Source of the DNA: Rhizobium sp. Q54
GTDB taxonomy: Bacteria > Pseudomonadota > Alphaproteobacteria > SMXS01
DNA length: 52,261 nucleotides
Direction: 5' to 3'
NCBI GenBank assembly: GCA_945907245.1
Contig: CAMDTB010000017.1
Location: forward strand, 1-52,261
The stretch's first letter is position 1. Each line of letters begins with the position of its first letter. The notes beneath the pieces are model-generated. The model had not been told where the DNA came from, did not search any database, and saw nothing but the letters and a program-made list of their open reading frames with translations. Position numbers and translations under genes: made by a program. Positions 1,825 through 36,868 of the stretch are shown here, in pieces.

Positions 1825-2592
1825 ATGGCGCTGCCCAATTTCGACCTGACCGGCAAGGTCTGCTTCATCACCGGCACCACCAGCGGCCTGGGCCGCCAGT
1901 TCGCCCTGTGCCTGGCCGAGGCGGGCGCGAAGGTGGTGATCACCGGCCGCCGCAAGGAACGGCTCGAGGCGCTGGCCAAGGAGATCAACGACGCGGGCGG
2001 CTTCGCCTGGCCCATCGCCTTCGACGTCACCGACCTTCCGGCAGGCGCCGCCGCCATCGCCGAGGCCGAGGAGAAGGTCGGGCCGATCTGGTGCCTGGTG
2101 AACAATTCCGGCATCACCATCATGGGCGCCAGCCAGAAGATCAGCCAGGAAGACTACGACCGGGTGATGGATACCAACATGCGCGCGCCGTTCTTCCTCA
2201 GCCAGGAAGTGGCCAGGCGGATGATCGACCGCGGCGCGCCGGGGCGCATCGTCAATATCGCGTCGATGCATTCCTATGTGGAGCTGAAGGGCGGCATCAC
2301 CTACTGCATGTCGAAGGCGGCGGTGCAGATGATGACCCAGGTCATGGCGCTGGAATGGGCCCGCTACGGCATCAAGGTGAACGCCATGAACCCGGGCTAC
2401 ATCCGCACCGACATCAACAGCGAGTACTACGACAGCGAAGCCGGGCAGAAGGACATCAAGGGCTGGCCCATGCGCCGCATCGGCAAGGACACCGACCTCA
2501 ACGGCCTGTTGCTGCTGCTGGCCTCCGAGGCCGGCGACTTCATGACCGGCGCGGGTGTCCGCATCGACGACGGCCAGGCGCTGGGCTTCTGA
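1825..2592 (+). CDS. Short-chain dehydrogenase/reductase (classical SDR)
   Basis: A 255-residue NAD(P)-dependent oxidoreductase of the classical SDR family. The cofactor motif TGTTSGLG is near residue 14, the NNSG segment follows, and the catalytic pair is YCMSK with a Ser in the preceding NIASMHS segment. The length is normal. The amidase gene starts 10 bp after its stop, so the two are probably cotranscribed. The substrate cannot be read from sequence. The start ATG follows GGGGACACTCC. Confidence 0.9.
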   Translation: MALPNFDLTGKVCFITGTTSGLGRQFALCLAEAGAKVVITGRRKERLEALAKEINDAGGFAWPIAFDVTDLPAGAAAIAEAEEKVGPIWCLVNNSGITIMGASQKISQEDYDRVMDTNMRAPFFLSQEVARRMIDRGAPGRIVNIASMHSYVELKGGITYCMSKAAVQMMTQVMALEWARYGIKVNAMNPGYIRTDINSEYYDSEAGQKDIKGWPMRRIGKDTDLNGLLLLLASEAGDFMTGAGVRIDDGQALGF

Positions 2593-2602
2593 GGAGGGTG
2601 CG

Positions 2603-3988
2603 ATGACGGACCTGGTGCATCTGTCGGCGATCGAACTCACGGCCCGCTTCAGGGACGGCTCGCTGTCGCCGGTCGAGGTGGCCAAGGCGGTGTTCGACCG
2701 CATCGACGACCGCAACGAGGGCGTCAACGCCTTCATCCTGCTCGACCGCGAGGGAGCGCTGAAGGAGGCGGAAAAGTCCGAGGCGCGCTGGAGCAAGTGC
2801 AAGCCGAAGGGGCCGCTCGACGGCGTGCCGCTGTCGATCAAGGAGCATATCGACGTCAAGGGCTGGCCCAGCCGCAATTCGTCGCCGGTGATCCCGGAGA
2901 CGCACCGGGCCGAGCAGGACGCGCCCGTCACCGCGCGGCTGCGCGGCGCGGGCGGCGTCATCCTGGGCAAGACCGCGACGCCCGAGTTCTGCTGGAAGGG
3001 CGTCACCGACAGCGCGCTTTACGGCGTCAGCCGCAATCCGTGGGACCTGGACAAGACGCCGGGCGGCTCGTCGGGCGGCGCGGCGGCGGCCTGCGCGCTC
3101 GGCATGGGTGCGCTGCATGTAGGCACCGACGCGGGCGGCTCGGTGCGCATTCCGGCCGCGTTCTGCGGCGTGTTCGGCCTCAAGCCTACCCAGAACCGGG
3201 TGCCGCACAATCCGGGCGGCGTCTCCGCGCTGATCTCGCAGGCCGGGCCGATCACCCGCACGGTCGCCGACGCGGCGCTGATGATGAACGTCATCACCCA
3301 GCCGGACGCGCGCGATCCGCTCGCCCTGCCGCCCGACGCCGACTTCGCCGCCGGCCTCGACGACGGTATAAAGGGTCTGCGCATGGCGTTCTGGGACGGC
3401 GCGCGGCTGATCCCGTTCGATCCCGAGGTGTCGCAGGCGCTGCAGGGCGCGGCGGAAACCTTCCGCGTGCTGGGCGCCGACGTGGCCGAGGCCGATCCGG
3501 GCTTCGACAACCAGCTCGGCACCTTCCTCGCCTTCTGGCAGCCGATGATCGCGCGCTACCTGGAAAACGCGACCGAGGAAGCGCTGGCCGCCAGCGACCC
3601 GTTCCTGGTGCGCTCGGCGCAGAAGGGCGCGCAGCAATCCATCCTCCGGCACTACCAGGCCATGGCCGACCGGGGCGCGCTCGCCCAGCTCATGGCCCGG
3701 TTCCATGAACGTTTCGACCTGCTGCTATGCCCGGTCACGCCTGTGCCGCCGTTCAAGGCCGGGCGCGGCGTCTATGGCCCGGAAGGCGAGGCCTACAAGC
3801 GCACCTGGACGCCGTTTACCTTCCCCTTCAACATCACCGGACAGCCGGCCGCGAGCGTCCCCTGCGGCTTCACCGCGGCCGGCCTGCCCATCGGCCTGCA
3901 GATCGTCGGACCCTGGGGTGCCGAATCCCTGATCCTGCGCGCCGCCAGGGCGTTCGAGGTGGCTCGCCCGTTCGCCTTGCCCGTCTGA
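2603..3988 (+). CDS. Amidase (amidase signature family)
   Basis: A 461-residue amidase-signature hydrolase that cleaves carboxamides with a Ser-cisSer-Lys triad. The Lys lies in SIKEHIDVKG near residue 80, and the Ser residues in the glycine-rich GGSSGGAAAAC block and in TDAGGSVRIPAAFCG. The ATG at 2603 is preferred over an upstream one because GAGGAGGG sits just before it and family members start close to this point. It follows the SDR gene by 10 bp. The substrate is unknown; family members act on aryl amides, nitrile-derived amides or acyl-amides. It differs from GatA in context, as no gatB or gatC is nearby. Confidence 0.9.
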   Translation: MTDLVHLSAIELTARFRDGSLSPVEVAKAVFDRIDDRNEGVNAFILLDREGALKEAEKSEARWSKCKPKGPLDGVPLSIKEHIDVKGWPSRNSSPVIPETHRAEQDAPVTARLRGAGGVILGKTATPEFCWKGVTDSALYGVSRNPWDLDKTPGGSSGGAAAACALGMGALHVGTDAGGSVRIPAAFCGVFGLKPTQNRVPHNPGGVSALISQAGPITRTVADAALMMNVITQPDARDPLALPPDADFAAGLDDGIKGLRMAFWDGARLIPFDPEVSQALQGAAETFRVLGADVAEADPGFDNQLGTFLAFWQPMIARYLENATEEALAASDPFLVRSAQKGAQQSILRHYQAMADRGALAQLMARFHERFDLLLCPVTPVPPFKAGRGVYGPEGEAYKRTWTPFTFPFNITGQPAASVPCGFTAAGLPIGLQIVGPWGAESLILRAARAFEVARPFALPV

Positions 3989-4064: not shown

Positions 4065-5408
4065 TTGCTCAGGTCCCATTCGAATACGCTTGTCTGGCCG
4101 GCGGTCATCGATCCGAGGCAGGCTCAGACCTTCGCCTATCTGAGCCAGCTGGAGCGAAGCCAGTGGCTGAAACCCGAGCGGTTGCGCCGGCTCCAGGCCG
4201 CGCAACTTGCTGCGCGCCTGCGCCATGCCGCCGAAGCCAGCACGTACTTTGCGCCCATGCTGCGGGGCCGCGAGATCAACCGCAACACGGCGTTCGACGT
4301 GCTCGCGTCGCTGCCGCTGCTGACCCGCGCCGACATGCAGAGTGATGCCGAGGGCATCTACTGCGAGCCGCCCAAGGACCACGGCGCGGTGAAGACCCTG
4401 CGGACGTCGGGTTCGACCGGACAGCCCGTAGCGGTGCGGTGCACGGCGGCGTGTTTCGCGCTGCGCGGCGCTGTCACCATTCGCAACCTGGGCTGGCGCG
4501 GCCTCAACACCATGAAAACCTTCGCGGCGATCCGTGCCAACATCAAGACCGGCACGGTCGATGCACCGGCGCGGTACCGGGGCTGGGGCGCGCAGATGAG
4601 CGCGCTGTTCCACACCGGCCCGGCGGTCGGCCTGCCGATCAACGTCCCGGTCCAAGAGCAGCTTGAATTCCTCGAGCGGTACAAGCCAGCCTATCTGCTG
4701 ACCTATCCCTCCAACCTGCGCGCGCTGATCGACCTGTCCCCCGACCGGCCCGCCGGGCTGGAATGCGCCATGTCCATGGGCGAGACGCTCCCTGAGGATC
4801 TCCGGGCGGACGTGCGCAGCCGCTGGGACATCCCTGTCTTCGACGAGTACAGCTCCGAGGAGATGGGGTCGATGGCCTCGCAGTGTTCCCATGGCAACTA
4901 TCACTGCACAGCCGAGGGCCATGTCCTGGAAGTGATCGGCGCCGACGGCCGGCCGTGCCAGCCCGGCGAGATTGGCCGCGTGGTCGTCACCGACATGGCC
5001 AATTTCGCGACCGCCATGCTGCGGTACGAAATCCGGGACTATGCCGAAGTTGGCGAGCCCTGCGGTTGCAAGCGGGGCCTGCCGGTGCTCAGGCGCATCG
5101 TCGGCCGCGAACGCAACCTGATGCAACTGCCCGACGGCAGCAAGTTCTGGCCGCAATTCGGCATGCGCGACCCGGAAGCAACACGCCTGGTCAAGCAGTA
5201 CCAGTTCATCCAGGTCAGTCTGGGTCGGCTGGAGATGAAAGCGGTCGCCGACCATCCGCTGACCGAGGACGAAAGGAACTGGATCACGGCGCTCGTGCGC
5301 CAGAAGATCAACCACCCGTTCGAAGTCACGATCGAACAGGTCGAAGGCCCCTTGCCCAAGGGTCCCAATGGCAAGTTCCAGGAGTTCATCTGCATGGTTG
5401 ATTCATGA
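4065..5408 (+). CDS. PaaK-like adenylate-forming enzyme (acyl-CoA/aryl-CoA ligase family)
   Basis: A 447-residue member of the phenylacetate-CoA ligase (PaaK/CapK) branch of ANL enzymes, which activate a carboxylate as an acyl-adenylate. The phosphate loop is TSGSTGQPVAV (about residue 112), the A5-like motif is DEYSSEEMG, and a C-terminal PLPKGPNGKFQEF carries a candidate adenylation lysine. The substrate pocket cannot be read by eye. The TTG at 4065 is the chosen start, preceded by GAGGGGG. It is the first gene of the plus-strand biosynthetic set and its stop overlaps the next start (ATGA at 5405). Most likely it activates an aromatic or amino acid for the later ligase; this is inference. 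Confidence 0.75.
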   Translation: MLRSHSNTLVWPAVIDPRQAQTFAYLSQLERSQWLKPERLRRLQAAQLAARLRHAAEASTYFAPMLRGREINRNTAFDVLASLPLLTRADMQSDAEGIYCEPPKDHGAVKTLRTSGSTGQPVAVRCTAACFALRGAVTIRNLGWRGLNTMKTFAAIRANIKTGTVDAPARYRGWGAQMSALFHTGPAVGLPINVPVQEQLEFLERYKPAYLLTYPSNLRALIDLSPDRPAGLECAMSMGETLPEDLRADVRSRWDIPVFDEYSSEEMGSMASQCSHGNYHCTAEGHVLEVIGADGRPCQPGEIGRVVVTDMANFATAMLRYEIRDYAEVGEPCGCKRGLPVLRRIVGRERNLMQLPDGSKFWPQFGMRDPEATRLVKQYQFIQVSLGRLEMKAVADHPLTEDERNWITALVRQKINHPFEVTIEQVEGPLPKGPNGKFQEFICMVDS

Positions 5409-6307
5409 CGACCACTTCGGCCTCGATCCGCGCGGGCATGACTCCAGCCGACGAGGAATTGCTGGAATCGGCACTGCTGGCGCATGGCTGGGCGCCCCGG
5501 CTGTGCCAGCATGGCAGCGAACGCGGCGGATGCGACTGGTATCACGGCGCCTGGCAGCTGCTGAGGATGCTGGGCATCATGTCCACCTCGGGCGTCAATG
5601 CCGCCCACTATGCCGCCGAGCTGGCGCGGATGGGCGGGGACCCGTCGTTCAGCCGGGTGCTGATTACCGGGTCCGCCGACTATTCCATGCTGAAGCTGAT
5701 CGCCGACGCCCGCGCGCCCTCCGATCCACCGCTGACTTATGTGGTGCTGGACCGGTGCGCGACCCCGTTGCGCGTCTGCGAGTGGTATGCCGAGCGCCAC
5801 GGCCTCGTGATCGAGACACTGCACCAGGACGTGCTCGATCCCTTGCCGGCTGGCGCGTTCGACGCCGTCTACACCCATGCCTTCATGGGCAATTTCAACG
5901 ATGCGGACCGGGCGTCGCTTGTCGGACAATGGGCTAGGGTGCTGCGGCCCGGGGGCCGGGTCGTCACGGTCCAGCGCGTGCGGCCCGATTTTCCAGGCGA
6001 GATGGTCCGCTTCTCCGACGCCGAGGCGGCGGCCTTCATCGAACGGGTGGCGGATCTGGCGCCGGTCATGCTGCCGCCCGAAGCGGCCGAACTCGACGTG
6101 GTCGCCATGGCCCGAGGGCATGCGAGCAATTTTTGGGCTTTTCCCGTACGCTCGGCCGATGACCTGCGCGCCCAGTTCGAGAACGCCGGGTTCCGGCTGG
6201 ACAGGTTCGAGCGCAGCGCGCCGGCCGGCCCGGCCGGCGTCACAGGGCCGTCGGTGCCCAACACCGATGGCCATTATCTGATCACTGCGGAACGCACGGA
6301 ACAATGA
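5405..6307 (+). CDS. SAM-dependent methyltransferase, class I-like (unknown substrate)
   Basis: A 300-residue protein with a Rossmann methyltransferase layout. RVLITGSADYSML stands where the glycine-rich SAM loop is expected but is poor in glycine. TYVVLDRCATPL resembles the acidic motif II, and FDAVYTHAFMGNF followed by ARVLRPGGRVV is the usual post-III region. The substituted SAM loop leaves some doubt about activity. The start overlaps the previous stop by 4 bp, and its own stop overlaps the next start the same way, so the three genes are translationally coupled. Confidence 0.7.
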   Translation: MTTTSASIRAGMTPADEELLESALLAHGWAPRLCQHGSERGGCDWYHGAWQLLRMLGIMSTSGVNAAHYAAELARMGGDPSFSRVLITGSADYSMLKLIADARAPSDPPLTYVVLDRCATPLRVCEWYAERHGLVIETLHQDVLDPLPAGAFDAVYTHAFMGNFNDADRASLVGQWARVLRPGGRVVTVQRVRPDFPGEMVRFSDAEAAAFIERVADLAPVMLPPEAAELDVVAMARGHASNFWAFPVRSADDLRAQFENAGFRLDRFERSAPAGPAGVTGPSVPNTDGHYLITAERTEQ

Positions 6308-7083
6308 CCATCAACACCCACATCATCGGCCTGATCGACCGCTGCGAGCGCCTGTGGGCGGCCGAAGCGGAAGTGGTCCGGACCTATTGGGATTCACCGA
6401 TCCGCAACGAAGACACCGACCGCCTCTGGCTGATGCGGCAGATGTACAAGGAACTGCTCGACGGCGCGCTGCCCAGCCTGCTCTGGGCGCATGGCAATTT
6501 CGAGCATGTCGGCTGCCTGGACTCCCGCGCCGAGTTCCTCGAGGAACTCGACGTGCTTCGCGAGGAATTCATCCACTACATGGGCTTCGCCGGCATCTAC
6601 GAGGCGCTGTCGGGGCAGGTTCCCAGCGCAGAGGCGTTGCGCGGCCTGGGCGCATGGCCGGAGAACGACACGCTGCAGGCGCTGCGCGCACGCCACCGGC
6701 GCGATCATGGCGACCTGGGGCTGCGCGCGCAGCGTTTCACCGAGGGCGGCTATTGCACGCTCTATTCGGAGGGCATGAAGCTCGCCGGGCGCGGCGGTAT
6801 CGACCGGATGATCGCCGCGGCCTGCGAAGTGGTGTTCAACGATGAATTCGGCCACATGCTGCGCGGCATCGGCGACCTGCATGGGTCGGTCGGCGACCTG
6901 TCGGACGCCGACTGGGCCCTGCTCGGCGAACTGGTCGAGGAGCAGCTCGTGCACCGCGTCGTCATGCGCAATGCCCAGTTTTCGGCTCCGGTGGCGCCAG
7001 AGCGGCTGGCGGCTATCCAGAACGGCGCCTGCGACCCACTGCCCTTCGACTACCAGCGCGCCTTCGGGCAGCCGCGAACCTGA
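6304..7083 (+). CDS. Putative ferritin-like/diiron helical protein
   Basis: A 259-residue mostly helical protein that I do not recognise as a named family. It has two E-x-x-H motifs, EFIH at residues 88-91 and EFGH at 181-184. Further Glu residues lie about 25-40 positions before each (E50 or E67; E147 or E156). This E...ExxH...E...ExxH spacing is that of ferritin-like or haem-oxygenase-like diiron oxidases, which in biosynthetic clusters carry out N-oxygenation, desaturation or C-C cleavage. Metal binding is inferred only. It overlaps the methyltransferase gene by 4 bp and precedes the chorismate-enzyme homologue by 2 bp. Confidence 0.5.
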   Translation: MTINTHIIGLIDRCERLWAAEAEVVRTYWDSPIRNEDTDRLWLMRQMYKELLDGALPSLLWAHGNFEHVGCLDSRAEFLEELDVLREEFIHYMGFAGIYEALSGQVPSAEALRGLGAWPENDTLQALRARHRRDHGDLGLRAQRFTEGGYCTLYSEGMKLAGRGGIDRMIAAACEVVFNDEFGHMLRGIGDLHGSVGDLSDADWALLGELVEEQLVHRVVMRNAQFSAPVAPERLAAIQNGACDPLPFDYQRAFGQPRT

Positions 7084-7085
7084 CC

Positions 7086-8315
7086 GTGGCAACCAAAGAC
7101 ACGCCGATTTCCGTCCACTGCACGCGCCGCGACGCCAGATGCAACGGCGCCAGGCTGCTGCGGGCCCTGCGCGCGGCGGGGACTTCCGGGCCGTATTTCC
7201 TGTATGGCGACGAGCGGGCAGCGGTCGCTTGCGCCGGTGCACGCGAGTTTCTGTCCATCATGCCCGAGGGCCGCGCCGAGGCCTGGTCACTGGCAGGCGA
7301 TTTCCTTGCCCGCCAGATCGATCGCTGCGTTTTCGGCTATTTTGGATTCGGCCTGAATGGCGGAATCGAAGAGGCACGGCCGTCGCCCTTTCCCGATTGC
7401 TGGCTCGGCGCCGCCGACGTCGCGCTCAAGGTAGGTCCGGACAGCTGGACGCCGATGGCCGGCGCGCCAATTGTCATCGACGTGCCGGCCTGCACCTGCG
7501 GCGACCGCCCGGTGCAGTTTGCCTCGACGCTCGACCGGTCGGCGCCGGACGACTATCTCCGGACTGTTCGACGTGCCCAGGCCTGGATCGACGGCGATGC
7601 CCGCAAGCGAATGACCGTTGCCCGTCGCCTCGCACTGCCGGCCCTCGACATGTTGCGCTCGGTGTCCTGCGTGCCCTCGGCAAGCGGCCACAGCCGCAGC
7701 TTCTGCCTGGACCTGGGCGATGTGGGACTGGCCGGCCAGTGCCCCGAGGTGCTGATGGTCGGCGATCGCCAAGGCTTCGTGTCCTACAAGCTGTCCGGAA
7801 CGTTTCCACGTAGCGCCGATCCAGACGCCGATGCCGAACTGCGCCGTCGGTTTGAGGCCGATCCCAAGAACCTCGCGGAGCATGCCAATTCCGCGGCCTC
7901 GTTCGGGGCGGCGCTTGCGGGGCTGGGCACGGTCACCTCGACCGGCCCGGAGGTTCTCGACCTGCGCCAGTTGCGCCACCTGATGACCAGGTTTCAGGTA
8001 ACCTATGGGCCGGGACGCGGCATCGCCGACGGCATCCGCGCCGTGCTGCCGCTGGGCGTCGCGCCATCGACCGGCGGATACCAGGCGCTGATGTCGATCG
8101 AGACCGGTGCCCGCGGGCCATTCTATGGCCTGGTCGGGCTGATCGAACCCGACGGCGCCGCGTCCATGACCCAGGTACTGCGCACCGTCTATCGGGCGGA
8201 TGACGAGTTTCATACATGGGTGGGCGCGGCGGTGACCAGCCAGTCCACACCCGAGGGAGAGTGGGCGGAGACGCTGATCAAACTGGGAGAGGTCGGCATC
8301 GTCCTCGCGGATTGA
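7086..8315 (+). CDS. Chorismate-utilizing enzyme homologue (TrpE/PabB/MenF fold), divergent
   Basis: A 409-residue protein with the C-terminal chorismate-binding domain of anthranilate, aminodeoxychorismate, isochorismate and salicylate synthases. In order: YLRTVRRAQAWIDGD (residue 157), CPEVLM (219), KLSGTFPRS (235), EADPKNLAEH (257), RHLM (297), LPLGVAPSTGGYQ (321), RGPFYGLVG (343), VLRTVY (364) and a final TPEGEWAETLIKL. Key Glu, His and Arg positions look kept. The usual GAPK-type loop is replaced by STGGYQ. No glutamine amidotransferase partner is nearby. The likely role is converting chorismate to an aromatic or dihydroaromatic precursor; which one cannot be told. The start is GTG at 7086, 2 bp after the previous stop. 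Confidence 0.72.
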   Translation: MATKDTPISVHCTRRDARCNGARLLRALRAAGTSGPYFLYGDERAAVACAGAREFLSIMPEGRAEAWSLAGDFLARQIDRCVFGYFGFGLNGGIEEARPSPFPDCWLGAADVALKVGPDSWTPMAGAPIVIDVPACTCGDRPVQFASTLDRSAPDDYLRTVRRAQAWIDGDARKRMTVARRLALPALDMLRSVSCVPSASGHSRSFCLDLGDVGLAGQCPEVLMVGDRQGFVSYKLSGTFPRSADPDADAELRRRFEADPKNLAEHANSAASFGAALAGLGTVTSTGPEVLDLRQLRHLMTRFQVTYGPGRGIADGIRAVLPLGVAPSTGGYQALMSIETGARGPFYGLVGLIEPDGAASMTQVLRTVYRADDEFHTWVGAAVTSQSTPEGEWAETLIKLGEVGIVLAD

Positions 8316-8418
8316 ACCAGCTCGGTCGAGGCGTGGTATTCTTCGCGTTCGCCTCTATCATACGGGGTGATTGCCGGGCAGTTACCGTCTCGGCTTGAAA
8401 TGAGGTCGACCGTCCAGC

Positions 8419-9060
8419 ATGCCGATGCCGCAGCTCCGCCAGCAGTTCAATGGCCAGCCCGACGAATGGGTCTTGCAGTTCTTCCAGGCAATGCTGTCGC
8501 AGCAGCTGGAGGTCGATGAGTTCGAAGTGGCCGTCCAGGCGTACTGGCAATCGGGCGATTTCATCGTGCGCGCGCCGCGGACTGCCGCCTGGCTGCGCGA
8601 CGTGGCGAGCAGCACCAGGCAGCGCGATGCCGGCTATGCCCACGAATCACCCCATCTTGGTTTCCGGAGTCAGTGGCTGGTCGGGGTGCCCGGACAGCCG
8701 GGGGCTATCCACATCCAGGCGCCCCGCGAAAAGCATCGGAAGGCGCGGTTCCCTGATCTGAACCGTCCGCCGCACCAGCATGATTCCGCCCGCATCGCGG
8801 TCATCACCCACGGCAGGGCGGTCTTCCACGTGTTGCGCGCGGCGCCAGGCGTGGGAGCCGTCGTGCTCGATTGCCCCGTCGAAACCGGTGACGTGATCTT
8901 CTGGCCCGCGTGGACGCCGCACACCTTCGACGCCAGGGAAGGCTTCTGGCTGGTGTCCGCCATGGCCCGCTATGTGTCGCCCGCCGAGGACGGCTTCGTC
9001 TTTCCGCTCGAAGGCGAGATCTACGGCGTCCCGAACCGGCCCTATCCGCCGGCTCGCTGA
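8419..9060 (+). CDS. Cupin-domain protein
   Basis: A 213-residue protein with both cupin motifs near the C-terminus. PPHQHDSARIAVITHG is motif 1 (metal-binding His residues) and GDVIFWPAWTPHTF is motif 2 with the last His. The first 90 residues are of unknown nature. Cupins in biosynthetic clusters act as oxygenases, isomerases or N-N bond-forming partners; which applies here is unknown. It lies 103 bp after the chorismate-enzyme gene, a gap in which nothing clear was seen. The ATG at 8419 has only a weak ribosome binding site. Confidence 0.65.
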   Translation: MPMPQLRQQFNGQPDEWVLQFFQAMLSQQLEVDEFEVAVQAYWQSGDFIVRAPRTAAWLRDVASSTRQRDAGYAHESPHLGFRSQWLVGVPGQPGAIHIQAPREKHRKARFPDLNRPPHQHDSARIAVITHGRAVFHVLRAAPGVGAVVLDCPVETGDVIFWPAWTPHTFDAREGFWLVSAMARYVSPAEDGFVFPLEGEIYGVPNRPYPPAR

Positions 9061-9081
9061 CCTCGCCCTAGCTGAAACGCT

Positions 9082-9852
9082 TTATCGTCCGAAATCCTCG
9101 GCCGACGGAAACTTGCCGAGTTGCGCGCCGCCGCTGATCTGCAGGTTGATCCCGGTAACGAACGCCTCGTCGCTGGCCAGCCAGAGCGCCGCGTTGGCGA
9201 TGTCGTCGACGGTGCCAAGCCGCGCCAGCCTGGTCTCCTTCAGGAACGCCTTCGGCACCACCGGCGCCGCGGCGATGATGCCATTGGTCATCTCGGTCGG
9301 GATGAAGCCCGGCGTGATGGCGTTCACCCGGATGTTCTGCTTGCCGAACTCGTTGGCCGCGATGATCACCGCGTGGTCGACACCGGCCTTGGTCGCCGCG
9401 TAGGCGGTCATGCCCTGCGGGTGCAGCGTGGCGGTGAGCGACGACGTCATGATGATCGAGCCGCCTGATTCAGGCATGGCGGCCGCCATGTGTTTGATGA
9501 ACAGGATGGCGCCGGTGAACTGGATGTCGATGGCGTCCTTCAGCTTGGCGGCGTCGATCTGGGCGATCGGCGACTGCACGTTGATGCCGGCGAAGTTCAC
9601 CGCCACGTCGATCCGGCCGAACTTGTCCACGGCCGCCCGGGCAAGCGCCTCGATCTGCTCGTCCTTCGAAATGTCACAGGGCACTGCCACCGCGCCGATC
9701 TCGGCGGCCAGCGCTTCCAGCGGCTCGGGCCGGCGCGCGGCGACGATGACCTTGGCGCCTTCCTCGACGAACCGGCGAGCGGTCGCCTGGCCCATGCTGC
9801 CCTTGCCGGATGCTCCCATGACCACCGCGACCTTACCGTCCAGACGTCCCAT
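9082..9852 (-). CDS. Short-chain dehydrogenase/reductase
   Basis: A 256-residue SDR. The cofactor loop is MGASGKGSMGQATA, slightly longer than the common TGxxxGIG. NFAGIN takes the place of NNAG, and the catalytic motif is YAATK with Ser in MTSSL. The ATG at 9852 is preferred over an upstream ATG at 9912 because it begins with MGRLDGKVAVV and is preceded by GGAGGACAGG. It is the only minus-strand gene inside the 4.07-12.97 kb set, so it may be an unrelated catabolic gene or a tailoring enzyme with its own promoter. Confidence 0.88.
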   Translation of the reverse strand: MGRLDGKVAVVMGASGKGSMGQATARRFVEEGAKVIVAARRPEPLEALAAEIGAVAVPCDISKDEQIEALARAAVDKFGRIDVAVNFAGINVQSPIAQIDAAKLKDAIDIQFTGAILFIKHMAAAMPESGGSIIMTSSLTATLHPQGMTAYAATKAGVDHAVIIAANEFGKQNIRVNAITPGFIPTEMTNGIIAAAPVVPKAFLKETRLARLGTVDDIANAALWLASDEAFVTGINLQISGGAQLGKFPSAEDFGR

Positions 9853-10025
9853 CCTGTCCTCCCTGTCCATTGGATGCGGCAGGGTACGACCGGAAGTGCT
9901 TTGTGTCGACACGACCGTGATCCTTTTGCAGGAACGTGGCTTCGGCCGTGGTCTTGTTCTAGTATCCGCCGACGTACCGGCGCATCCGTGCGCCGGGTTG
10001 CCGCGATGCCTAAGGATATGACGGA

Positions 10026-10811
10026 ATGGCCGGACCCAAGACTTCTCGATCGGCGAAAGACGCCGTTACGCCCCCGGCCAACTACGAGGAGCTGTTCCAG
10101 CTTCGCGGCGCTCCTTACGACGGCGCCATGACCCGCTTTCCCGAGGCGCGGGCCGAGGAATTCCTCAATACCATCGTCCGCGCCCGCCTTGTGCCGGGCG
10201 CGCATGTCGCCGACGTCCCCGCAGGCGGCGGATATCTGGCGAAATACCTGCCGGAAGACTGCATCTGGCTTGGACACGAGCCGTGTGCCTCGTTCGGTCA
10301 CGGCGCCACCGAACAGGACCGTGACCTGTTGCCGCTGCCCTGGGCTGACGCCAGCATCGATGCGGCGCTGTCCATCGCCGGCGTGCATCATCTCGACGAT
10401 AAGATACCACTGTTCACCGAACTGGCCCGGGTCGTCAGGCCGGGTGGCCGGCTGGTGCTGTCCGACGTCCACGAAGCGTCGGCGGTGTCACGTTTCCTCG
10501 ATGGCTGGGTCGATCGGCACAACAGCACCGGCCATGTCGGCAGCTATCTGGGCGACCACACGCTGGATGAGTTGCGGCGGGCGGGCTGGGACATCGTGTC
10601 GGCCGAGCGCGTGCCGTTTCACTGGCGCTTCGCGAACCTCAACGACATGGGAGAATTCGCCCACCGCCTGTTCGACCTGCGGACGTCCTCACCACACGAT
10701 ACCGCCCGCACCATCGCAGCCGAACTGGGCGTCGATGCCCTGCCCGGTGGTGTCGGCATGCGTTGGGAGCTGTTCATGGTGGAAGCGACGCCAACGGCGT
10801 CCCACCGCTAG
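10026..10811 (+). CDS. Class I SAM-dependent methyltransferase
   Basis: A 261-residue Methyltransf_11-type protein. The SAM loop is HVADVPAGGGYLAKYL (about residue 60), the acidic motif is WLGHEP, LPLPWADASIDAALS carries the D-A-S-x-D post-II signature, and ARVVRPGGRLVLSD is motif III. The substrate is unknown. It is followed 8 bp later by the ATP-grasp ligase gene, which suggests the methyl acceptor is a building block or product of that ligase. An alternative ATG at 10019 is out of frame. Confidence 0.85.
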   Translation: MAGPKTSRSAKDAVTPPANYEELFQLRGAPYDGAMTRFPEARAEEFLNTIVRARLVPGAHVADVPAGGGYLAKYLPEDCIWLGHEPCASFGHGATEQDRDLLPLPWADASIDAALSIAGVHHLDDKIPLFTELARVVRPGGRLVLSDVHEASAVSRFLDGWVDRHNSTGHVGSYLGDHTLDELRRAGWDIVSAERVPFHWRFANLNDMGEFAHRLFDLRTSSPHDTARTIAAELGVDALPGGVGMRWELFMVEATPTASHR

Positions 10812-10819
10812 CGCATCTG

Positions 10820-12967
10820 ATGACCGAGAAAAATACGGCAGTATTGTCTCGCCGCACGGTGGCCATCCTCAGGCGAGAGTTCGCTCCCGGTGGTCTAGGC
10901 TATGGCCTGAGGCAGCAATTCCTCAAGGCAACGGTGACGGCCAGGGCCCTACCCCAGACCGACTGTGCGCAGCTCCATGCCGCGATCGCGACGGCAATTC
11001 CGCGAGGCGCCGACGAGACCGACCCGCCGGTATCATCGATCGCCGATCTGATCATCTACTGGACCGCGGCACTGCAACGCGCCGGTGGCCAACCGGTCTT
11101 CGACCCGGGCCGGGTTCTGGGCGCAAGCAATGACGGCGAAGCGGTTATACTCGCCCTGCCCACCCACAACCTGGACGCCGTGGTCGCGGCGTTGTCCATC
11201 GTCGTCGATCTGCTCGAGGGCCTGCTGGACGGCGATGCACTGGCGTCCGATGTTCTGGACGGCGCAGAGCGTCGCATCGGCGCCTTCGTGGAACGATTTT
11301 CCGCCATTCGTTCCGGCGGGTCCAATACGCCCCATTTCCTCCGGGCAGCCTATGACAACAGGATGCCGTGGTTCCGGCTCGCGGCCGAAGTCTTCCAGAT
11401 CGGCATGGGCTCGAAGGGCCGCTGGCTCGAAAGCACCCTGACCGACATCACGCCGGCGATCTCCATGCGGCTTGCTCGGAGCAAGCTGGCAGCAGCCAGC
11501 ATGCTTCGTCAGGCGGGGCTGCCGGTACCAAGTCACCAGCTGGTGAAATCGGCCGACGAGGCGGTCGCCGTCGCGGGCCAGATCGGTTACCCGGTCGTCG
11601 TGAAACCGGCGGATCGGGACGGCGGCCTAGCGGTCGCTGCCGGGCTCACGGACGAGAATGGGGTGGTCCAGGCCTATGAGGCGGCAAGGGCGGCATCGCC
11701 CAATGTCATGGTCGAGAAGCATGTTGAGGGTCGCGACTTTCGCCTTGTGGTCCACAATGGCCGGATGATCTGGGCCCTCGAGCGTATCCCCGGCGGAGTC
11801 ACGGGAGACGGCGTCAGCACGGTGGCGCAACTGATCGAACGTCTCAACCGCGAGCCGGCCCGCGCCGTGCGCGCCGATGCGCCACTAAAGCCGCTGGTTT
11901 TCGACCGCGAAGCGGCCGAGTTGCTCGCCGAGCGCGGCATGACGCTGCAGACGGTGCCGGCCGCGGACGAGCGGATTCGCCTGCGCCGCGCCGCCAATGT
12001 CGCGTCAGGCGGCACGCCCGAGGGAGTCTTCGGGCAGGTGCACCCGGACAACGTTCTGCTCGCCGAACGGGCGGCCGCGGCGCTACGGCTCGACCTGGCC
12101 GGCATCGACCTTCTGATCCCGGATATTTCGCGGTCCTGGAAGGAGACGGGCGGGGCGATCTGCGAGGTGAATGCCCAGCCGACGATCGGCAACACCACCT
12201 CCAAGCACCTCTATGGCGAGATTCTCCGCACCCTATTGGACGGCGATGGCCGGATTCCTATCGCGATGGTCGTCGGCGCCGGGCCGGACTCGCCGGTCCC
12301 CGCGCTGCTGGCGCGGATACTGGGCGCCGCTGGTCTGCGCACGGCCGTCGCGTCGTCGCGACACGCCTGCGTCGGCAACAGGATACTTTACGATTTGCCG
12401 GGGAATCCTTACGCCGTCGCCCTCGCTCCGCTGATCGACAGCGAAACCGATGCGATGGTCGTCGCCGTGTCGGAGAGTTCGGTGCTGAAGACGTATCTGC
12501 CTTTCGATCGCTGCACGACCATCGTTCTGGCTGGGACCCGCTTCGACGGGGTGGACGTCGATGTGGCCGCCGTGAACGGTTTCGCGCGACTGTTGCTGCC
12601 GATCAGCCTCGGCGGCCTGGTCATCGACTCACGGGCAACAGCCTGGCGGCAGATGATCGGTTCGCTGCGGAGAGCGCGGATCGTGCTGGCGTCGGCGGGC
12701 GCCGAAATGGCGGAGGTCCGGGAACTCGTCAAGGCGGGGCACGAAGCCGTGCTCGTCGACCAGGGCGGTGGCTTGTGTCATCTGGCCGTTGGCGGCGAGG
12801 TGATCGATCTGGCGGACCTGCCCGACGGCGACGACACCGGGTTGTCCTGCACACCCGAAGACGTCGCCCTGGCGGCGGCGGCGGCGTGGAACATGGGGCA
12901 GGCTCCGGACATTATCCGTCGTGGCCTGGCGGGCATTCGCGTGGCAGCCGTGGGCGCAAATCCCTGA
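10820..12967 (+). CDS. Cyanophycin-synthetase-like ATP-grasp ligase with degenerate Mur-like domain
   Basis: A 715-residue protein laid out like cyanophycin synthetase CphA: an N-terminal domain (1-190), an ATP-grasp amide ligase (about 195-475) and a Mur-ligase-like domain (about 480-715). GMGSKGRWLESTLTDITPA matches the CphA linker, VVKP (K262) binds nucleotide, and D430 with ICEVNAQP (E449, N451) are the metal ligands. The Mur P-loop, GTNGKTTT in CphA, reads GAGPDSPV here, so the second ATP site is probably dead. It would then catalyse one amide ligation, not build cyanophycin. The ATG at 10820 is chosen; a TTG at 10763 is possible. It converges on chrA with a 3-bp gap. A broken paralogue lies at 35025-36828. 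Confidence 0.8.
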   Translation: MTEKNTAVLSRRTVAILRREFAPGGLGYGLRQQFLKATVTARALPQTDCAQLHAAIATAIPRGADETDPPVSSIADLIIYWTAALQRAGGQPVFDPGRVLGASNDGEAVILALPTHNLDAVVAALSIVVDLLEGLLDGDALASDVLDGAERRIGAFVERFSAIRSGGSNTPHFLRAAYDNRMPWFRLAAEVFQIGMGSKGRWLESTLTDITPAISMRLARSKLAAASMLRQAGLPVPSHQLVKSADEAVAVAGQIGYPVVVKPADRDGGLAVAAGLTDENGVVQAYEAARAASPNVMVEKHVEGRDFRLVVHNGRMIWALERIPGGVTGDGVSTVAQLIERLNREPARAVRADAPLKPLVFDREAAELLAERGMTLQTVPAADERIRLRRAANVASGGTPEGVFGQVHPDNVLLAERAAAALRLDLAGIDLLIPDISRSWKETGGAICEVNAQPTIGNTTSKHLYGEILRTLLDGDGRIPIAMVVGAGPDSPVPALLARILGAAGLRTAVASSRHACVGNRILYDLPGNPYAVALAPLIDSETDAMVVAVSESSVLKTYLPFDRCTTIVLAGTRFDGVDVDVAAVNGFARLLLPISLGGLVIDSRATAWRQMIGSLRRARIVLASAGAEMAEVRELVKAGHEAVLVDQGGGLCHLAVGGEVIDLADLPDGDDTGLSCTPEDVALAAAAAWNMGQAPDIIRRGLAGIRVAAVGANP

Positions 12968-12970
12968 TCC

Positions 12971-14335
12971 CTAGGCGAGGTGCCGCAGCGCCACGCCGGC
13001 CATGGCGCATCCAGCGAGCACCCGGAGCACACTCCACCTGAAGCGCAGCAACGCGATCGCGGCAACCCCGGCAAGCAGGAGCGCGGCTGGATCGAGCGAC
13101 GATGGAACAGGGAGTTCCAGCGACAGCGGCCCCAACGACACAAGCCGGTGCGATGTGAACACCACATGAAGGCCGAACCACAGCGCCAGGTTGAGGATCA
13201 CGCCGACCACGGCGGCGGTGACCGTTCCCAGCGCCAGCGCCAACGTCCTGTTACCCAGCAGCCGCTCCACATGGGGCGCGCCCAGCAGGATCCACAGGAA
13301 GCATGGCGCGAAGGTGACCCAGGTGGCCAGCAGCGCGCCGAGCAGGCCGCCAGTCAGCGGGTCGAGCCCGGCCGCGTCGCGAAAGCCGGCGATGAAGCCG
13401 ACGAAGGTCAGCACCAGGATCAGCGGCCCCGGCGTGGTTTCGGCCAGTGCCAGACCGTCCAGCATCTCGCCGGGCTTCAGCCAGCCATAGGCGCCGACGG
13501 CCTCTTGCGCCACGTAGCTCAGCACCGCGTAGGCGCCGCCGAAGGTCACCACCGCCATCTTGGAAAAGAACAGCGCGATGGGCGGATAGACGCTGTCCCA
13601 GCCGAACAGGGCGATCAGCAGCAGCGGCAGGCTGGCCCAGATGCCGCCCCACACCGTGATCATGCCAAGCGCCCGCCGCCAGGTCGGGTGCACCGGCGGG
13701 AGCGCGTCGATGGCGCGCGAACTTTCGGGGACGCCGTGGCCAGCGGGCGCGGCGAGCAGGTCGGGCCTGACCCGCGCGACCAGAAATCCGCCCAGGCCCG
13801 CCGCCGCGATCACCAGGGGGAAGGGCGCGCCGAACAGGAACAGCGCCAGGAACGCCATCGCCGCGACCGCGAGCATCAGCCGCGTTTTCAGGGCGCGCCG
13901 CGCCACGCGCAGCAAGGCCTCGATCACGATCGCGAGCACGGCGGCCTTGAGGCCGAAGAACACGGTGTCCAGCCACGCGCTTTGCTGGAACAGCATGTAG
14001 GCCGCGCTCAGGCCCACGATGACGCAGAAGCCGGGCAGGATGAACAACAGTCCGGCGGCGACGGCGCCTCGGGTCCGGTGCAGCATCCAGCCGATATAGG
14101 TCGCGAGCTGCTGCGCCTCGGGGCCGGGCAGCAGCATGCAGAAGTTGAGGGCGTGCAGGAACCGGCCTTCGCCGATCCACTTCTTCTCGTCGACCAGGAT
14201 GCGGTGCATCAGCGCGATCTGCCCGGCGGGGCCGCCGAACCCCAGCAGGCCGATCTTGCCGAAGGTGCGCAACAGCTCGGCGAAGGAAGCGCGGGGCGTC
14301 CCTGACGCGCTTCCCGCAGGTTTGTCGTGGTCCAT
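12971..14335 (-). CDS. chrA: Chromate efflux transporter ChrA
   Basis: A 454-residue membrane protein of the CHR family that exports chromate with proton exchange. It has two homologous halves, each starting with the family signature: FGKIGLLGFGGPAGQI in the N-half and KMAVVTFGGAYAVL in the C-half. The N-half also has LLPGPEAQQLATYIGW and the C-half ETTPGPLILVLTFVGF. About ten to twelve hydrophobic segments are visible. The ATG at 14335 is preferred over a TTG 9 bp upstream. It stands alone, converging on the ATP-grasp gene. Confidence 0.93.
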   Translation of the reverse strand: MDHDKPAGSASGTPRASFAELLRTFGKIGLLGFGGPAGQIALMHRILVDEKKWIGEGRFLHALNFCMLLPGPEAQQLATYIGWMLHRTRGAVAAGLLFILPGFCVIVGLSAAYMLFQQSAWLDTVFFGLKAAVLAIVIEALLRVARRALKTRLMLAVAAMAFLALFLFGAPFPLVIAAAGLGGFLVARVRPDLLAAPAGHGVPESSRAIDALPPVHPTWRRALGMITVWGGIWASLPLLLIALFGWDSVYPPIALFFSKMAVVTFGGAYAVLSYVAQEAVGAYGWLKPGEMLDGLALAETTPGPLILVLTFVGFIAGFRDAAGLDPLTGGLLGALLATWVTFAPCFLWILLGAPHVERLLGNRTLALALGTVTAAVVGVILNLALWFGLHVVFTSHRLVSLGPLSLELPVPSSLDPAALLLAGVAAIALLRFRWSVLRVLAGCAMAGVALRHLA

Positions 14336-14438
14336 AGCCTGCAAGATGGCGGCCTTTCATGACGGACGGGTGACGGTCTTCCCTCCAGACGGGAAGATTT
14401 CTATGCTGGCGCCGCGTTCGCTCTGAAGGGAAACGGCA

Positions 14439-15323
14439 ATGGCGGAGAAGGTAGCATTTCTGGGCCTGGGCGTGATGGGCTATCCCATGGCCGGGCATCT
14501 CGGGACCGCGGGCTACGACGTCACGGTCTTCAACCGCACGAAAGCGCGCGCCGATGCGTGGGTGGCGCAGCATGGTGGCTGCGCCGCGCCGACGCCCGCC
14601 GAGGCGGCCGAGGGCTGCGACATGGTGTTCTCCTGCGTCGGCAACGACGATGACGTGCGCCAGGTGATCCTCGGCAGCGACGGCGCGTTCTCGGCCATGA
14701 AACCGGGCAGCATCCTGATCGACCACACCACGGCCTCGGCCGTGCTGGCGCGGGAGCTGGACGAGGCCGGCAAGGCGCGGGGCGTCGGCGTACTGGACGC
14801 GCCGGTCTCGGGCGGCCAGGCGGGCGCCGAGAACGGCAAGCTGACCGTAATGGTGGGCGGCGATCCGGCGGTGTTCGCCAGGGCCGAGGCCGCCATGACC
14901 GTGTTCGCCAAGGCGGTGCGGCTGATGGGACCGGCGGGCCACGGCCAGCTTACCAAGATGGTCAACCAGATCTGCATCGCCGGCGTGGTGCAGGGCCTGT
15001 CCGAAGGCATCCACTTCGCCAGGCAGGCGGGCCTTGACCCGCGCGCGGTCGTCGACGTCATCCGCCACGGCGCGGCGCAGAGCTGGCAGATGGAGAACCG
15101 CTACGAGACCATGACCGATGGCAAGTTCAATCACGGTTTCGCGGTCGACTGGATGCGCAAGGACCTGGGCATGACCCTCGACGAGGCGCGGCGCAATGGC
15201 GCCCACCTGCCGCTGACCGCGCTGGTCGACCAGTTCTATGGCGAGGTGCAGGGCCTGGGCGGCGGCCGTTGGGATACGTCCAGCCTGATCGCCCGGCTGG
15301 AGGCGATGACCCGGCGCGACTGA
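14439..15323 (+). CDS. 3-hydroxyisobutyrate/tartronate-semialdehyde reductase family dehydrogenase
   Basis: A 294-residue beta-hydroxyacid dehydrogenase. The Rossmann loop is GLGVMGYPMAGHL near residue 9, DAPVSGGQAGAENG is the substrate-binding signature, and the catalytic Lys is in GQLTKMVNQ near residue 170. The stop overlaps the start of the glycerate kinase gene (TGATG). That partner points to tartronate semialdehyde reductase (GlxR/GarR type), giving D-glycerate, rather than 3-hydroxyisobutyrate dehydrogenase. The choice rests on context only. Confidence 0.88.
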   Translation: MAEKVAFLGLGVMGYPMAGHLGTAGYDVTVFNRTKARADAWVAQHGGCAAPTPAEAAEGCDMVFSCVGNDDDVRQVILGSDGAFSAMKPGSILIDHTTASAVLARELDEAGKARGVGVLDAPVSGGQAGAENGKLTVMVGGDPAVFARAEAAMTVFAKAVRLMGPAGHGQLTKMVNQICIAGVVQGLSEGIHFARQAGLDPRAVVDVIRHGAAQSWQMENRYETMTDGKFNHGFAVDWMRKDLGMTLDEARRNGAHLPLTALVDQFYGEVQGLGGGRWDTSSLIARLEAMTRRD

Positions 15324-16546
15324 TGGACCTGTTCCGGCGGATGTTCGATGCGGCGGTCGCCTCGGCGAAGCCCGCCAACTGCCTGCCGTCGCACCTGCCG
15401 GCTCCGCCGCGCGGCCGCACCATCGTCGTCGGTGCGGGCAAGGCGAGCGCCGAGATGGCGCGGGTGCTGGAGGTGCACTACCCCGTGCCGGTCGAGGGCC
15501 TGGTCGTCACCCGCTACGGCCACGGCGCGCCGACGACATCCATCGAGATCGTCGAGGCCGGCCATCCGGTGCCCGATGCCAATGGCGAGCGGGCCGCGCG
15601 GCGCATTCTCGACATGGTCGGCGGATTGACCGCCGATGATCTCGTCATCTGTCTGCTGTCCGGCGGCGGCTCGGCGCTGCTGCCGCTGCCCGCGCCCGGC
15701 CTGACCCTGGCCGACAAGCAGACCGTGACGGCGGCGCTGCTCAGGGCGGGCGCGACCATCGCCGAGATCAACGGCGTGCGCCGCCATCTCTCGGCGGTCA
15801 AGGGCGGCAGGCTTGCGCAGGCGGCCAGGCCCGCCCGGCTGCTGACGCTCGCCATCTCCGACGTGCCGGGCGACGATCCGCTGGTGATCGCGTCGGGGCC
15901 GACGGTTTCCGATCCCACCAGCTTCGCCGACGCCCGCGCGGTCGTCTCTCGCTACCTTGTCGATGTGCCCGCAGCCGTCCGGGACCATCTCGACGCGGGG
16001 AAGGATCTGTTCGCCGAACCGTGGGGCGACTATGTGCTGGTCGCCCGGCCCGCGGATGCGCTGGCCGCTGCCGCGGACGTCGCCGATCAGGCCGGCTACA
16101 ACGTGGTGTCGCTGGGCGACTCGGTAGAGGGTGAAGCGCGGGAGGTCGCCGTCCGCCATGCCACCTTGGCAAAGGGCTTCCTGGCGGGCGGTGAAAAGGT
16201 GGCGCTGGTCTCGGGTGGCGAACTCACCGTCACCATCACCGGCGACGGCATCGGCGGACCCAGTCACGAATACGTCCTGGCGCTGATGATCGCCTGCGGC
16301 GGCGATTCGCGTCTCTCGGGCATGGCGTGCGATACCGACGGGATTGATGGAGCGACCGACGCGGCAGGCGCGTGGTTCGACGCCGGAACGCTCGCGCTAG
16401 CGGCGGCGGCCGGCCTAGATCCGCTCGATGCACTAGGCCGCAATGATTCGGGCTCGTTCTTGGCTGCGCTGAACCGGCAGGTGGTCAGCGGACCGACGCG
16501 GACCAACGTGAACGACGTGCGGGTGACCCTGGTCGACCCGCGATAG
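15323..16546 (+). CDS. Glycerate 2-kinase (MOFRL family)
   Basis: A 407-residue protein of the DUF4147/MOFRL glycerate kinase family, which makes 2-phosphoglycerate from glycerate and ATP. Visible are VVGAGKAS near residue 36, LLSGGGSALLPLP, HLSAVKGG, SDVPGDDPLVIASGPT, LVSGGELTVTITG with GGPSHEYVLAL, and DTDGIDGATDAAG. The ATG at 15323 overlaps the previous stop and is preferred over an ATG at 15269 inside the reductase gene. With the reductase it forms a two-step route from tartronate semialdehyde (glyoxylate carboligase or tartrate pathways) into glycolysis. Confidence 0.92.
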   Translation: MDLFRRMFDAAVASAKPANCLPSHLPAPPRGRTIVVGAGKASAEMARVLEVHYPVPVEGLVVTRYGHGAPTTSIEIVEAGHPVPDANGERAARRILDMVGGLTADDLVICLLSGGGSALLPLPAPGLTLADKQTVTAALLRAGATIAEINGVRRHLSAVKGGRLAQAARPARLLTLAISDVPGDDPLVIASGPTVSDPTSFADARAVVSRYLVDVPAAVRDHLDAGKDLFAEPWGDYVLVARPADALAAAADVADQAGYNVVSLGDSVEGEAREVAVRHATLAKGFLAGGEKVALVSGGELTVTITGDGIGGPSHEYVLALMIACGGDSRLSGMACDTDGIDGATDAAGAWFDAGTLALAAAAGLDPLDALGRNDSGSFLAALNRQVVSGPTRTNVNDVRVTLVDPR

Positions 16547-32334: not shown

Positions 32335-32399
32335 GAAGGTGACTGTGGCGATCGATTTCAGGACCTGCTTGATTTCATTCTCCCGTCCGGCTGGCGCCG

Positions 32400-32428
32400 A
32401 GTTAAGGGGAGGTACGGAAGCGTGTCAA
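32400..32428 (-). promoter_or_regulatory. Candidate sigma70-type promoter for the TonB receptor
   Basis: On the minus strand TTGACA (32423-32428) is followed 17 bp later by TTAACT (32400-32405). The -35 box is a perfect consensus match; the -10 box matches three of six positions. It lies in the short gap between the phosphatase-superfamily gene and the receptor, about 25 bp upstream of the out-of-frame ATG. Confidence 0.4.
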
Positions 32429-32429
32429 C

Positions 32430-34019: not shown

Positions 34020-34034
34020 GCACGGTCTCCGGCG

Positions 34035-34961: not shown

Positions 34962-35024
34962 GCGTGACCTTTGCTGTGCGGTAGGGGCGTCGTGGATCGA
35001 AAAGGTGGGTGGGGGCCGCTTTCA

Positions 35025-36828: not shown

Positions 36829-36868
36829 CGTCGATGGGTTCGGGCAACGGACCTAATGGCTTGTACTA

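Follow-up and report, generated by a model that had tools for sequence, protein, structure and literature searches.

A small, variable and possibly biosynthetic gene cluster with a divergent chorismate-family enzyme and a CphA2-like ligase at a fixed chromosomal site in Rhizobium sp. Q54

Introduction

In the salicylate synthase MbtI, Lys205 is the catalytic lysine that activates water and glutamate residues bind Mg2+, and aminodeoxychorismate synthase (PabB) carries a lysine before its GT motif (PIKGT). The HxxxDxxH motif is part of the ligand set of heme-oxygenase-like diiron oxidases. The cyanophycin synthetase CphA2 joins beta-Asp-Arg dipeptides. According to excerpts of a published account of cyanophycin synthetase (PMC9427784), Lys261, Arg309, Arg323, Asp431 and Glu450 of CphA surround ATP and the substrates, His267, Gly456 and Arg458 of CphA1 handle the growing chain and aspartate, and CphA2 is without the M-domain P-loop and Mlid. 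Small biosynthetic loci that contain ATP-grasp ligases, and neither nonribosomal peptide synthetases (NRPS) nor polyketide synthases (PKS), are a kind already known. Here, we describe a locus in a 52,261-nucleotide stretch of DNA, hereafter the window, from the 3.3-Mb draft genome of Rhizobium sp. Q54 (assembly GCA_945907245.1, contig CAMDTB010000017.1, positions 1 to 52,261 of the forward strand). It comprises genes for a PaaK-like ligase (A), a methyltransferase (B), a probable diiron oxidase (C), a chorismate-family enzyme (D), a cupin-like protein (E), a short-chain dehydrogenase/reductase (SDR; F), a second methyltransferase (G), a CphA-like ligase (H) and a chromate transporter-like protein (I), lying between an amidase gene (Z) and a dehydrogenase gene (J).

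The interpretation that we tentatively prefer is that this locus is biosynthetic, directing the formation of a methylated, oxidised and amide-linked acid derived from chorismate, and that it represents a small, variable cluster at a fixed chromosomal site between the amidase and dehydrogenase genes. It is favoured because A-B-C-D form a tight, overlapping run kept in five genomes of the genus, because the tested cluster genes are under purifying selection, because B-C, B-C-D, A-B and G pairings recur outside the genus with the B-linked C proteins on one branch, and because H keeps its ATP and Mg residues, C diiron-type residues, and D the Mg site together with equivalents of T271, H334, R405 and K438 of MbtI. 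The product of the cluster is probably a modified acid originating in the aromatic-amino-acid pathway. The leading results of searches in open-access papers held no publication on this gene combination, in agreement with the initial annotation, made from the letters of the window, which knew of no characterised pathway with such a set.

A variable and a constant module share one chromosomal site

The locus consists of two modules side by side, a variable A-B-C-D and a constant F-G-H-I. Equivalent sites in other genomes were located through the flanking genes Z and J, the latter being 73-95% identical in six other genomes. The A-B-C-D module is present in five of the seven genomes of the genus, replaced in one (G002) and absent from the site in one (G006), while F-G-H-I was found at all six genus sites that could be read. 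In G001 (L008), G003 (L007) and G005 (L090) the order is A-B-C-D-F-G-H-I, with no cupin gene and with the D and F matches 13-15 base pairs (bp) apart; G004 displays A-B-C-D only up to a contig end inside D, and G006 carries F-G-H-I with no A-D at the site, which is where A, B and D were looked for. At the G002 site, A (54%) is accompanied by an enolase-superfamily enzyme (MR_MLE), a B-like methyltransferase (31%) and a hydrolase, with F, a 364-amino-acid protein, G, H and I next in order; the G002 genome gave no match to C at E 0.001 and none to D at E 1e-24. In this locus (L087, 3457-8281) the MR_MLE enzyme, which is closest to muconate cycloisomerases, and the hydrolase, of the alpha/beta type, stand with the B-like methyltransferase and the 364-amino-acid protein where C and D would be expected, beside the same G-H pair. 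In G007, from a related genus of the same family, 267 bp separate Z from J and this interval has no called gene, so that the site is empty.

Protein C is present in five of the seven genus genomes, the source genome included, and in none of the 89 other genomes of the same search. The constant genes are well preserved, with F 77-91% identical in five other genus loci, G 69-85% identical in five other genus genomes, and I 74-84% identical in G001, G002, G003, G005 and G006 with no match at the G007 site. Compared with the congener locus L007, genes A, B, C, D, F, G, H and I present pN/pS values of 0.15-0.34 and no internal stops (E was left out), and they are thus working genes. A faster divergence of H where A-D is missing was considered and found no support in the H:F divergence ratios calculated from identities, which were ~2.3-2.5 in G002 and G006 and 2.5-4.2 in G001, G003 and G005.

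Parts of the cluster recur together outside the genus

The 50 C loci collected include three from the genus, four non-genus loci with B beside C (L009, L010, L032 and L043) and 43 that lack B. A relative of A, D or G lies near the B-linked C in three of these four non-genus loci versus none of the 43 others (p = 0.00025, a value that treats the loci as independent and compares flanks of unequal length). The additional gene is A in L043, where it converges on C with a 4-bp overlap, D in L009, where it is cut by the contig end, and G in L032, where a 38% relative lies ~7 kb from B-C. At E 1e-10, the genomes holding these four loci contain no A relative in one case (G749, the source of L009) and one or two in the other three, the only one in G751 being a weak 22% relative.

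A search with a B profile matched seven of 385 genomes of the class, three of them outside the genus: L144 (G677), L145 (G010) and L146 (G576). Each of the three has A and B convergent, their stops overlapping by 4 bp in L145 and lying ~20 bp apart in L144 and L146. Among the non-genus B loci, seven in all, A is a direct neighbour of B or B-C in four, C adjoins B in four, D is present in one and G lies nearby in one, which points to B as the hub and to A-B and B-C as the recurring pairs. The complete seven-gene set was found in none of these seven loci, several of which are cut by contig ends.

In a tree of C proteins (41 rows, covering 33 of the 43 lone-C loci, the remaining 10 having been left out of alignment A1), one branch (SH-aLRT 80) separates the B-linked proteins from the others. 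Linkage to B changes once on this tree, compared with a mean of 7.4 changes after shuffling, and none of 500 shuffles was as low; the B-linked rows of L032 and L043 are long branches that meet. The wider C family occurs without B in L016/L030, L017/L026, L021/L031, L034/L055 and others, with two copies in some Defluviicoccus drafts.

Other searches added no further loci. At E 1e-5 neither B nor C had a relative in plasmid records, and a scan of 145 genomes around one gammaproteobacterial relative returned only that relative. In a first B-profile scan, 115 of 398 genomes of the phylum gave matches, the source genome included (491.5 bits); the remaining matches were not counted, the best being a generic methyltransferase with 35 bits over a partial profile.

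A family of 307-352-amino-acid proteins with no Pfam or NCBIfam match was also observed beside B-C or G, at 7992-9023 of L009 and at 15549-16472 and 16462-17520 of L032. The three proteins (343, 307 and 352 amino acids, respectively) are related to each other. They display a conserved DY...ExN pattern that hints at ATP-grasp, but they are not assigned as ATP-grasp ligases: Pfam, NCBIfam and PDB searches were unconvincing (the PDB search covered one protein), profile comparison with H gave a probability of 0.3, and the structure model was poor (pLDDT 47.7).

The chorismate-family enzyme D

The best relative of D in the PDB is MbtI. On alignment of the two proteins, Lys205, Glu294 and Tyr385 of MbtI correspond to Arg175, Asn262 and Phe346 of D, respectively, and D has an SGIPK segment shortened by three residues. 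The arginine at the Lys205 position is present in all four rows of the alignment, as are equivalents of MbtI Glu252, Thr271, Glu297, His334, Arg405, Glu431, Glu434 and Lys438; among these residues of D, E265, E392 and E395 are the equivalents of Mg-binding glutamates. Against the curated NCBIfam models, D scores 93 bits for salicyl_syn (cut-off 325.15) and 90.1 bits for isochor_syn (cut-off 224.75), thus falling below both. Ser237-Gly-Thr stands in place of the PIKGT of PabB, again in 4/4 rows, and an assignment of D as PabB was rejected on this ground. Chorismate is the likely substrate of D, as judged from its family.

Relatives of D at E 1e-24 or better occur in three of the 385 class genomes, all of the genus, and across these genomes, the four non-genus B-C genomes and the 50 C loci, close relatives are restricted to the genus and the fragment in L009. 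Open-access papers, searched for MST enzymes that lack the lysine, yielded nothing on point among the leading results.

The CphA-like ligase H

The closest PDB relative of H is CphA (7lgm, E 2.9e-72), and the cyanophycin synthetase model matches it with 338.8 bits over positions 121-713 of 871 (cut-off 877). The GTNGKTT of 7lgm aligns to GAGPDSP in H, and none of the five rows of the alignment retains the Mur P-loop. In the same five rows, K262, R308, R322, D430 and E449 are kept, as judged from alignment and spacing, while Gly268, Thr455 and Gly457 occupy the places of His267, Gly456 and Arg458. Set against the features excerpted from PMC9427784, H has neither the active Mur P-loop nor the His267 and Arg458 that characterise CphA1, and it agrees with CphA2 in keeping the ATP-grasp site and in losing the M-domain P-loop and Mlid. 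To the extent of that account, H has the architecture of CphA2 but probably a different substrate.

CphA-like proteins at E 1e-60 are present in 20 of the 385 class genomes, genus members included; in G564 the gene directly follows another methyltransferase gene, and three of the four genomes with non-genus B-C loci encode such proteins elsewhere (224-301 bits). The window itself holds a second CphA-like block on the minus strand (30283-38116), comprising a TonB-dependent receptor, a type I phosphodiesterase, a family 2 glycosyltransferase, a ligase (35025-36828) and a P450 (36869-38116). This second ligase is split over several frames with TGA in the window and forms one 601-amino-acid frame in the congener G003 (L127); decay and an assembly error would account equally well for the break.

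Protein C is predicted to be a diiron oxidase

Protein C has no match in Pfam or NCBIfam at E 0.001 and no sequence relative in the PDB at E 10. Over 41 aligned homologues E21, E88, H91, E147, D180, E181 and H184 are invariant, and E23 is found in at least 90%. E88xxH91 and E181xxH184 form two ExxH motifs, and the invariant set could hold two metals. The AlphaFold model has a pLDDT of 93.1, although Foldseek returned only weak matches, none at E 0.001 or better. Structural alignment (VIA-align) placed TenA first, with a Z score of 15.3 and a root mean square deviation (rmsd) of 3.4 over 204 aligned residues. It was followed by CT610/CADD (Z score 12.9, rmsd 4.0 over 201), UndA (12.6, 4.0 over 205), HrmI (12.2, 4.3 over 203), MiaE (11.8, 3.8 over 185), FlcD (11.3) and BesC (10.8), although for helical bundles a Z score below ~13 may mean only a common arrangement. 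The model thus suggests a TenA/heme-oxygenase-like fold. The two ExxH motifs had raised the suspicion of a purely ferritin-like (AurF/PaaA-type) fold; the model puts TenA/heme-oxygenase-like structures first and MiaE lower, and AurF-type structures are not among the best 50 structural matches listed, which excludes nothing. The first histidine of HxxxDxxH is not seen in C, and a ferritin-like assignment of the ligands is possible. C is predicted to be an O2-dependent diiron oxidase, and the label "diiron-like" of the initial annotation thus gains support from the invariant Glu/His set and from the model.

Ligase A and methyltransferase B

Ligase A scores 26.8 bits for Pfam AMP-binding, just under the cut-off of 29.9, and lies below the NCBIfam cut-offs for the DVU_1553 family (109.7 bits), FlxY (90.7 bits) and BagE/FevW (55.4 bits). 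The TSGS(T/S)G loop, the aspartate of the RYxxxDxAE segment and the C-terminal lysine are present in all eight aligned homologues, and these motifs with the catalytic lysine indicate that A is probably a PaaK-type adenylate-forming ligase. The best PDB matches of methyltransferase B span only residues ~100-205. In its N-terminal region (residues 34-47), C43 and H47 are present in 12/12 relatives and Cys34 in 11/12, a Cys/His set that looks like a possible metal site.

Gene layout and family assignments

The genes of the locus and its flanks are listed in Table 1. The initial annotation had presented seven plus-strand genes, A to E with G and H; its distances proved exact (4-bp overlaps at A/B and B/C, gaps of 2 bp at C/D and 8 bp at G/H), and all seven of its genes are present, but it left out the minus-strand gene F. 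Its family calls for A, B, D, E, G and H are borne out by Pfam and NCBIfam at the superfamily level. The NCBIfam scores listed for A, B, D, G and H all lie far under the family cut-offs, and C and E have no NCBIfam match, so that the scans back the assignments at this level. No glutaminase was found among the locus proteins scanned with Pfam.

Table 1. Genes of the locus and its flanks, with positions in the window
Gene	Predicted product	Position	Strand	Basis or remark
Z	Amidase, flanking the variable site on the left	2555..3988	+	Amidase 323.5 bits; adjoins J in G007
A	PaaK/CapK-like adenylate-forming ligase, 447 amino acids	4065..5408	+	Pfam AMP-binding 26.8 bits and motifs
B	Class-I S-adenosylmethionine (SAM) methyltransferase with its own N-terminal region	5405..6307	+	Methyltransf_11 35.7 bits
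C	Probable diiron oxidase, TenA/heme-oxygenase-like fold	6304..7083	+	41-row alignment and AlphaFold model
D	Divergent chorismate-binding (MST-type) enzyme without glutaminase domain	7086..8315	+	Chorismate_bind 118.7 bits (cut-off 27)
E	Cupin-like protein; start uncertain (~8419), frame open from 8404	8419..9060	+	AraC_binding, Cupin_2
F	SDR, between E and G	9082..9912	-	adh_short_C2 194 bits
G	Second SAM methyltransferase, paired with H	10026..10811	+	Methyltransf_11 38 bits
H	CphA2-like ATP-grasp ligase, degenerate Mur-ligase domain, without C-terminal part	10820..12967	+	338.8 bits
I	ChrA-type chromate transporter-like protein, converges on H	12971..14344	-	Chromate_transp 246 bits
J	3-Hydroxyisobutyrate dehydrogenase-type, right flank	14439..15323	+	NAD_binding_2 171 bits, NAD_binding_11 116.6 bits

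The cupin E has so far been seen in this genome only, being absent from the three congeners in which its position can be read (G001, G003 and G005) and unreadable in G004. It scores 23.8 bits for AraC_binding (cut-off 21.1) and 24 bits for Cupin_2 (cut-off 27.2). Gene I converges on H at all six readable genus sites, and another chromate transporter lies near A-B in L144; I might export the product or oxyanions.

Discussion

In a biosynthetic locus of the kind that we tentatively prefer, D would use Mg2+ to turn chorismate into isochorismate, salicylate or a related acid, A would adenylate a carboxylate, C would oxidise the carboxylate with O2, and B and G would methylate. H would form one amide bond between a carboxylate and an amino acid or amine, by way of an acyl-phosphate and with the ATP-grasp site only. 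The A-D product might be the substrate of H, in which case one product would arise from both modules. Several points weigh against this interpretation. The function of the locus and its product are predicted from the genes, and for D, which is without the catalytic lysine and part of SGxPK, chorismate as substrate follows from the family only. Within the genus co-location carries little weight, since synteny extends to the flanking genes as well, the genome-contig scan reaches only relatives of C with an exact short peptide in common with the query, and the comparison of B-linked with lone C loci carries the assumption of independence and the unequal flanks given above. H does not change faster relative to F where A-D is missing, and there is thus no sign of its co-evolving with A-D. 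Since A-D is absent at the G006 site and H was found near B in none of the seven non-genus B loci, several of them cut by contig ends, A-D and G-H may be separate pathways.

These last observations are at the core of the possible alternative, rated almost as likely, in which two independent pathways occupy one site, G-H (with F and I) making an amide-type product throughout the genus and A-B-C-D being a separate module of acyl activation, oxidation and methylation that was acquired or swapped. The G006 site, with F-G-H-I only, and the G002 site, where the run A-B-C-D gives way to A with an MR_MLE enzyme, a B-like methyltransferase and a hydrolase beside the same F-G-H-I, are as expected of such an arrangement, yet at readable sites of the genus A-D, where it occurs, is always beside G-H, and the G relative near B-C in L032 makes a link between the two sets possible. 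A catabolic role is unlikely. Under it A would make the acyl-CoA of an environmental aromatic or cyclic acid that C oxygenates and B modifies, as in aryl-CoA degradation, and the neighbourhoods that lean towards uptake and catabolism also count against biosynthesis: a hydantoinase/oxoprolinase near A-B in L144 and L146 and TctA/TctC in L145 (Pfam), with, as examples of neighbours of lone C genes, a Rieske ring-hydroxylating oxygenase (L017), a TctC receptor (L012) and a luciferase-like monooxygenase (L018). The window flank also holds an acyl-CoA dehydrogenase, an SDR and an amidase. Against catabolism, the chorismate enzyme and the CphA-like ligase belong to anabolic families, and neither an aryl-CoA oxygenase reductase nor a beta-oxidation gene is present among the genes scanned in 4065-12967.

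A known pathway in diverged form, whether a salicylate-type siderophore, a bacilysin-like dipeptide or cyanophycin, is very improbable. D is nearest to salicylate synthases and H to cyanophycin synthetase, and the prephenate route to bacilysin likewise combines an ATP-grasp ligase with a cupin and an SDR. However, A, B, D, G and H score far below the NCBIfam cut-offs listed for them, the set contains no NRPS, and conservation does not extend to the cupin. The catalytic lysine of D and the equivalents of His267 and Arg458 of H, the latter as described in the excerpted account of CphA, are absent, and these residue tests weaken the cyanophycin and salicylate versions in particular. At the opposite extreme, it is quite unlikely that D is a chorismate-family enzyme of other catalytic logic, with arginine for the general-base lysine and a shortened SGxPK, and that the locus makes a new class of small molecule, in which a PaaK-like ligase activates a chorismate-derived acid, a new diiron clade supplies the oxidation, and methylation and capping, the latter by a single-site amide ligase derived from CphA2, complete the product.

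The biosynthetic set without NRPS, PKS or genes for ribosomally synthesised and post-translationally modified peptides (RiPP) that the initial annotation proposed is still the best reading, but not as a single seven-gene set, there being two modules and a cupin that is not conserved. Co-location in other genomes, by which it suggested that its set be checked, holds for relatives of A, B, C, D and G, which recur close to one another outside the genus, and does not extend to the set as such; for the cupin and the CphA-like ligase it is contradicted by the congeners and the non-genus B loci, respectively, within the limits set by the truncated contigs. If the tentatively preferred biosynthetic interpretation is true, the locus would represent, in uncultured alphaproteobacteria, a further way of making small amides that involves neither NRPS nor PKS. 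Its chorismate-family enzyme would be a divergent one, with chemistry that is not deducible from described members; C would belong to a diiron-type clade that has no Pfam family and of which a single genome scan returned 50 related loci; and H would be a CphA2-like ligase turned from cyanophycin to another use. More such loci could be found at little cost through the A-B and B-C pairs.

Comparison with described systems

The components of the locus are of known superfamilies; what is unusual is their combination, together with the active sites of D and H, which differ from those of their namesakes. Ligase A has the adenylate-forming motifs in common with the PaaK-like ligases AjiA1, BagE/FevW and the DVU_1553 family, but lies far below each curated cut-off. 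Protein C has the overall fold, as seen by structural alignment, in common with TenA and the heme-oxygenase-like diiron oxidases (CADD, UndA, HrmI, FlcD, BesC and PolF) and could bind metal through its invariant E88, H91, E147, E181 and H184, although identity is 7-16% in the rows listed and the pattern of two ExxH motifs with a further glutamate resembles ferritin-like sites at least as much. With MbtI and EntC, D shares the Chorismate_bind family, the Mg-ligand equivalents E265, E392 and E395, and H298, R366 and K399. It differs from them in the arginine, asparagine and phenylalanine that replace Lys205, Glu294 and Tyr385 and in its shorter SGIPK segment, and it has no glutaminase domain. 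Finally, in H as in CphA2, following the excerpts of PMC9427784, the ATP-grasp site is kept, the Mur P-loop is lost and the C-terminal Mur part is missing, in contrast with CphA1, from which H departs by His267 to Gly, Gly456 to Thr and Arg458 to Gly. H also differs from cyanophycin synthetases in scoring less than half the cut-off of their model and in its setting beside methyltransferases.

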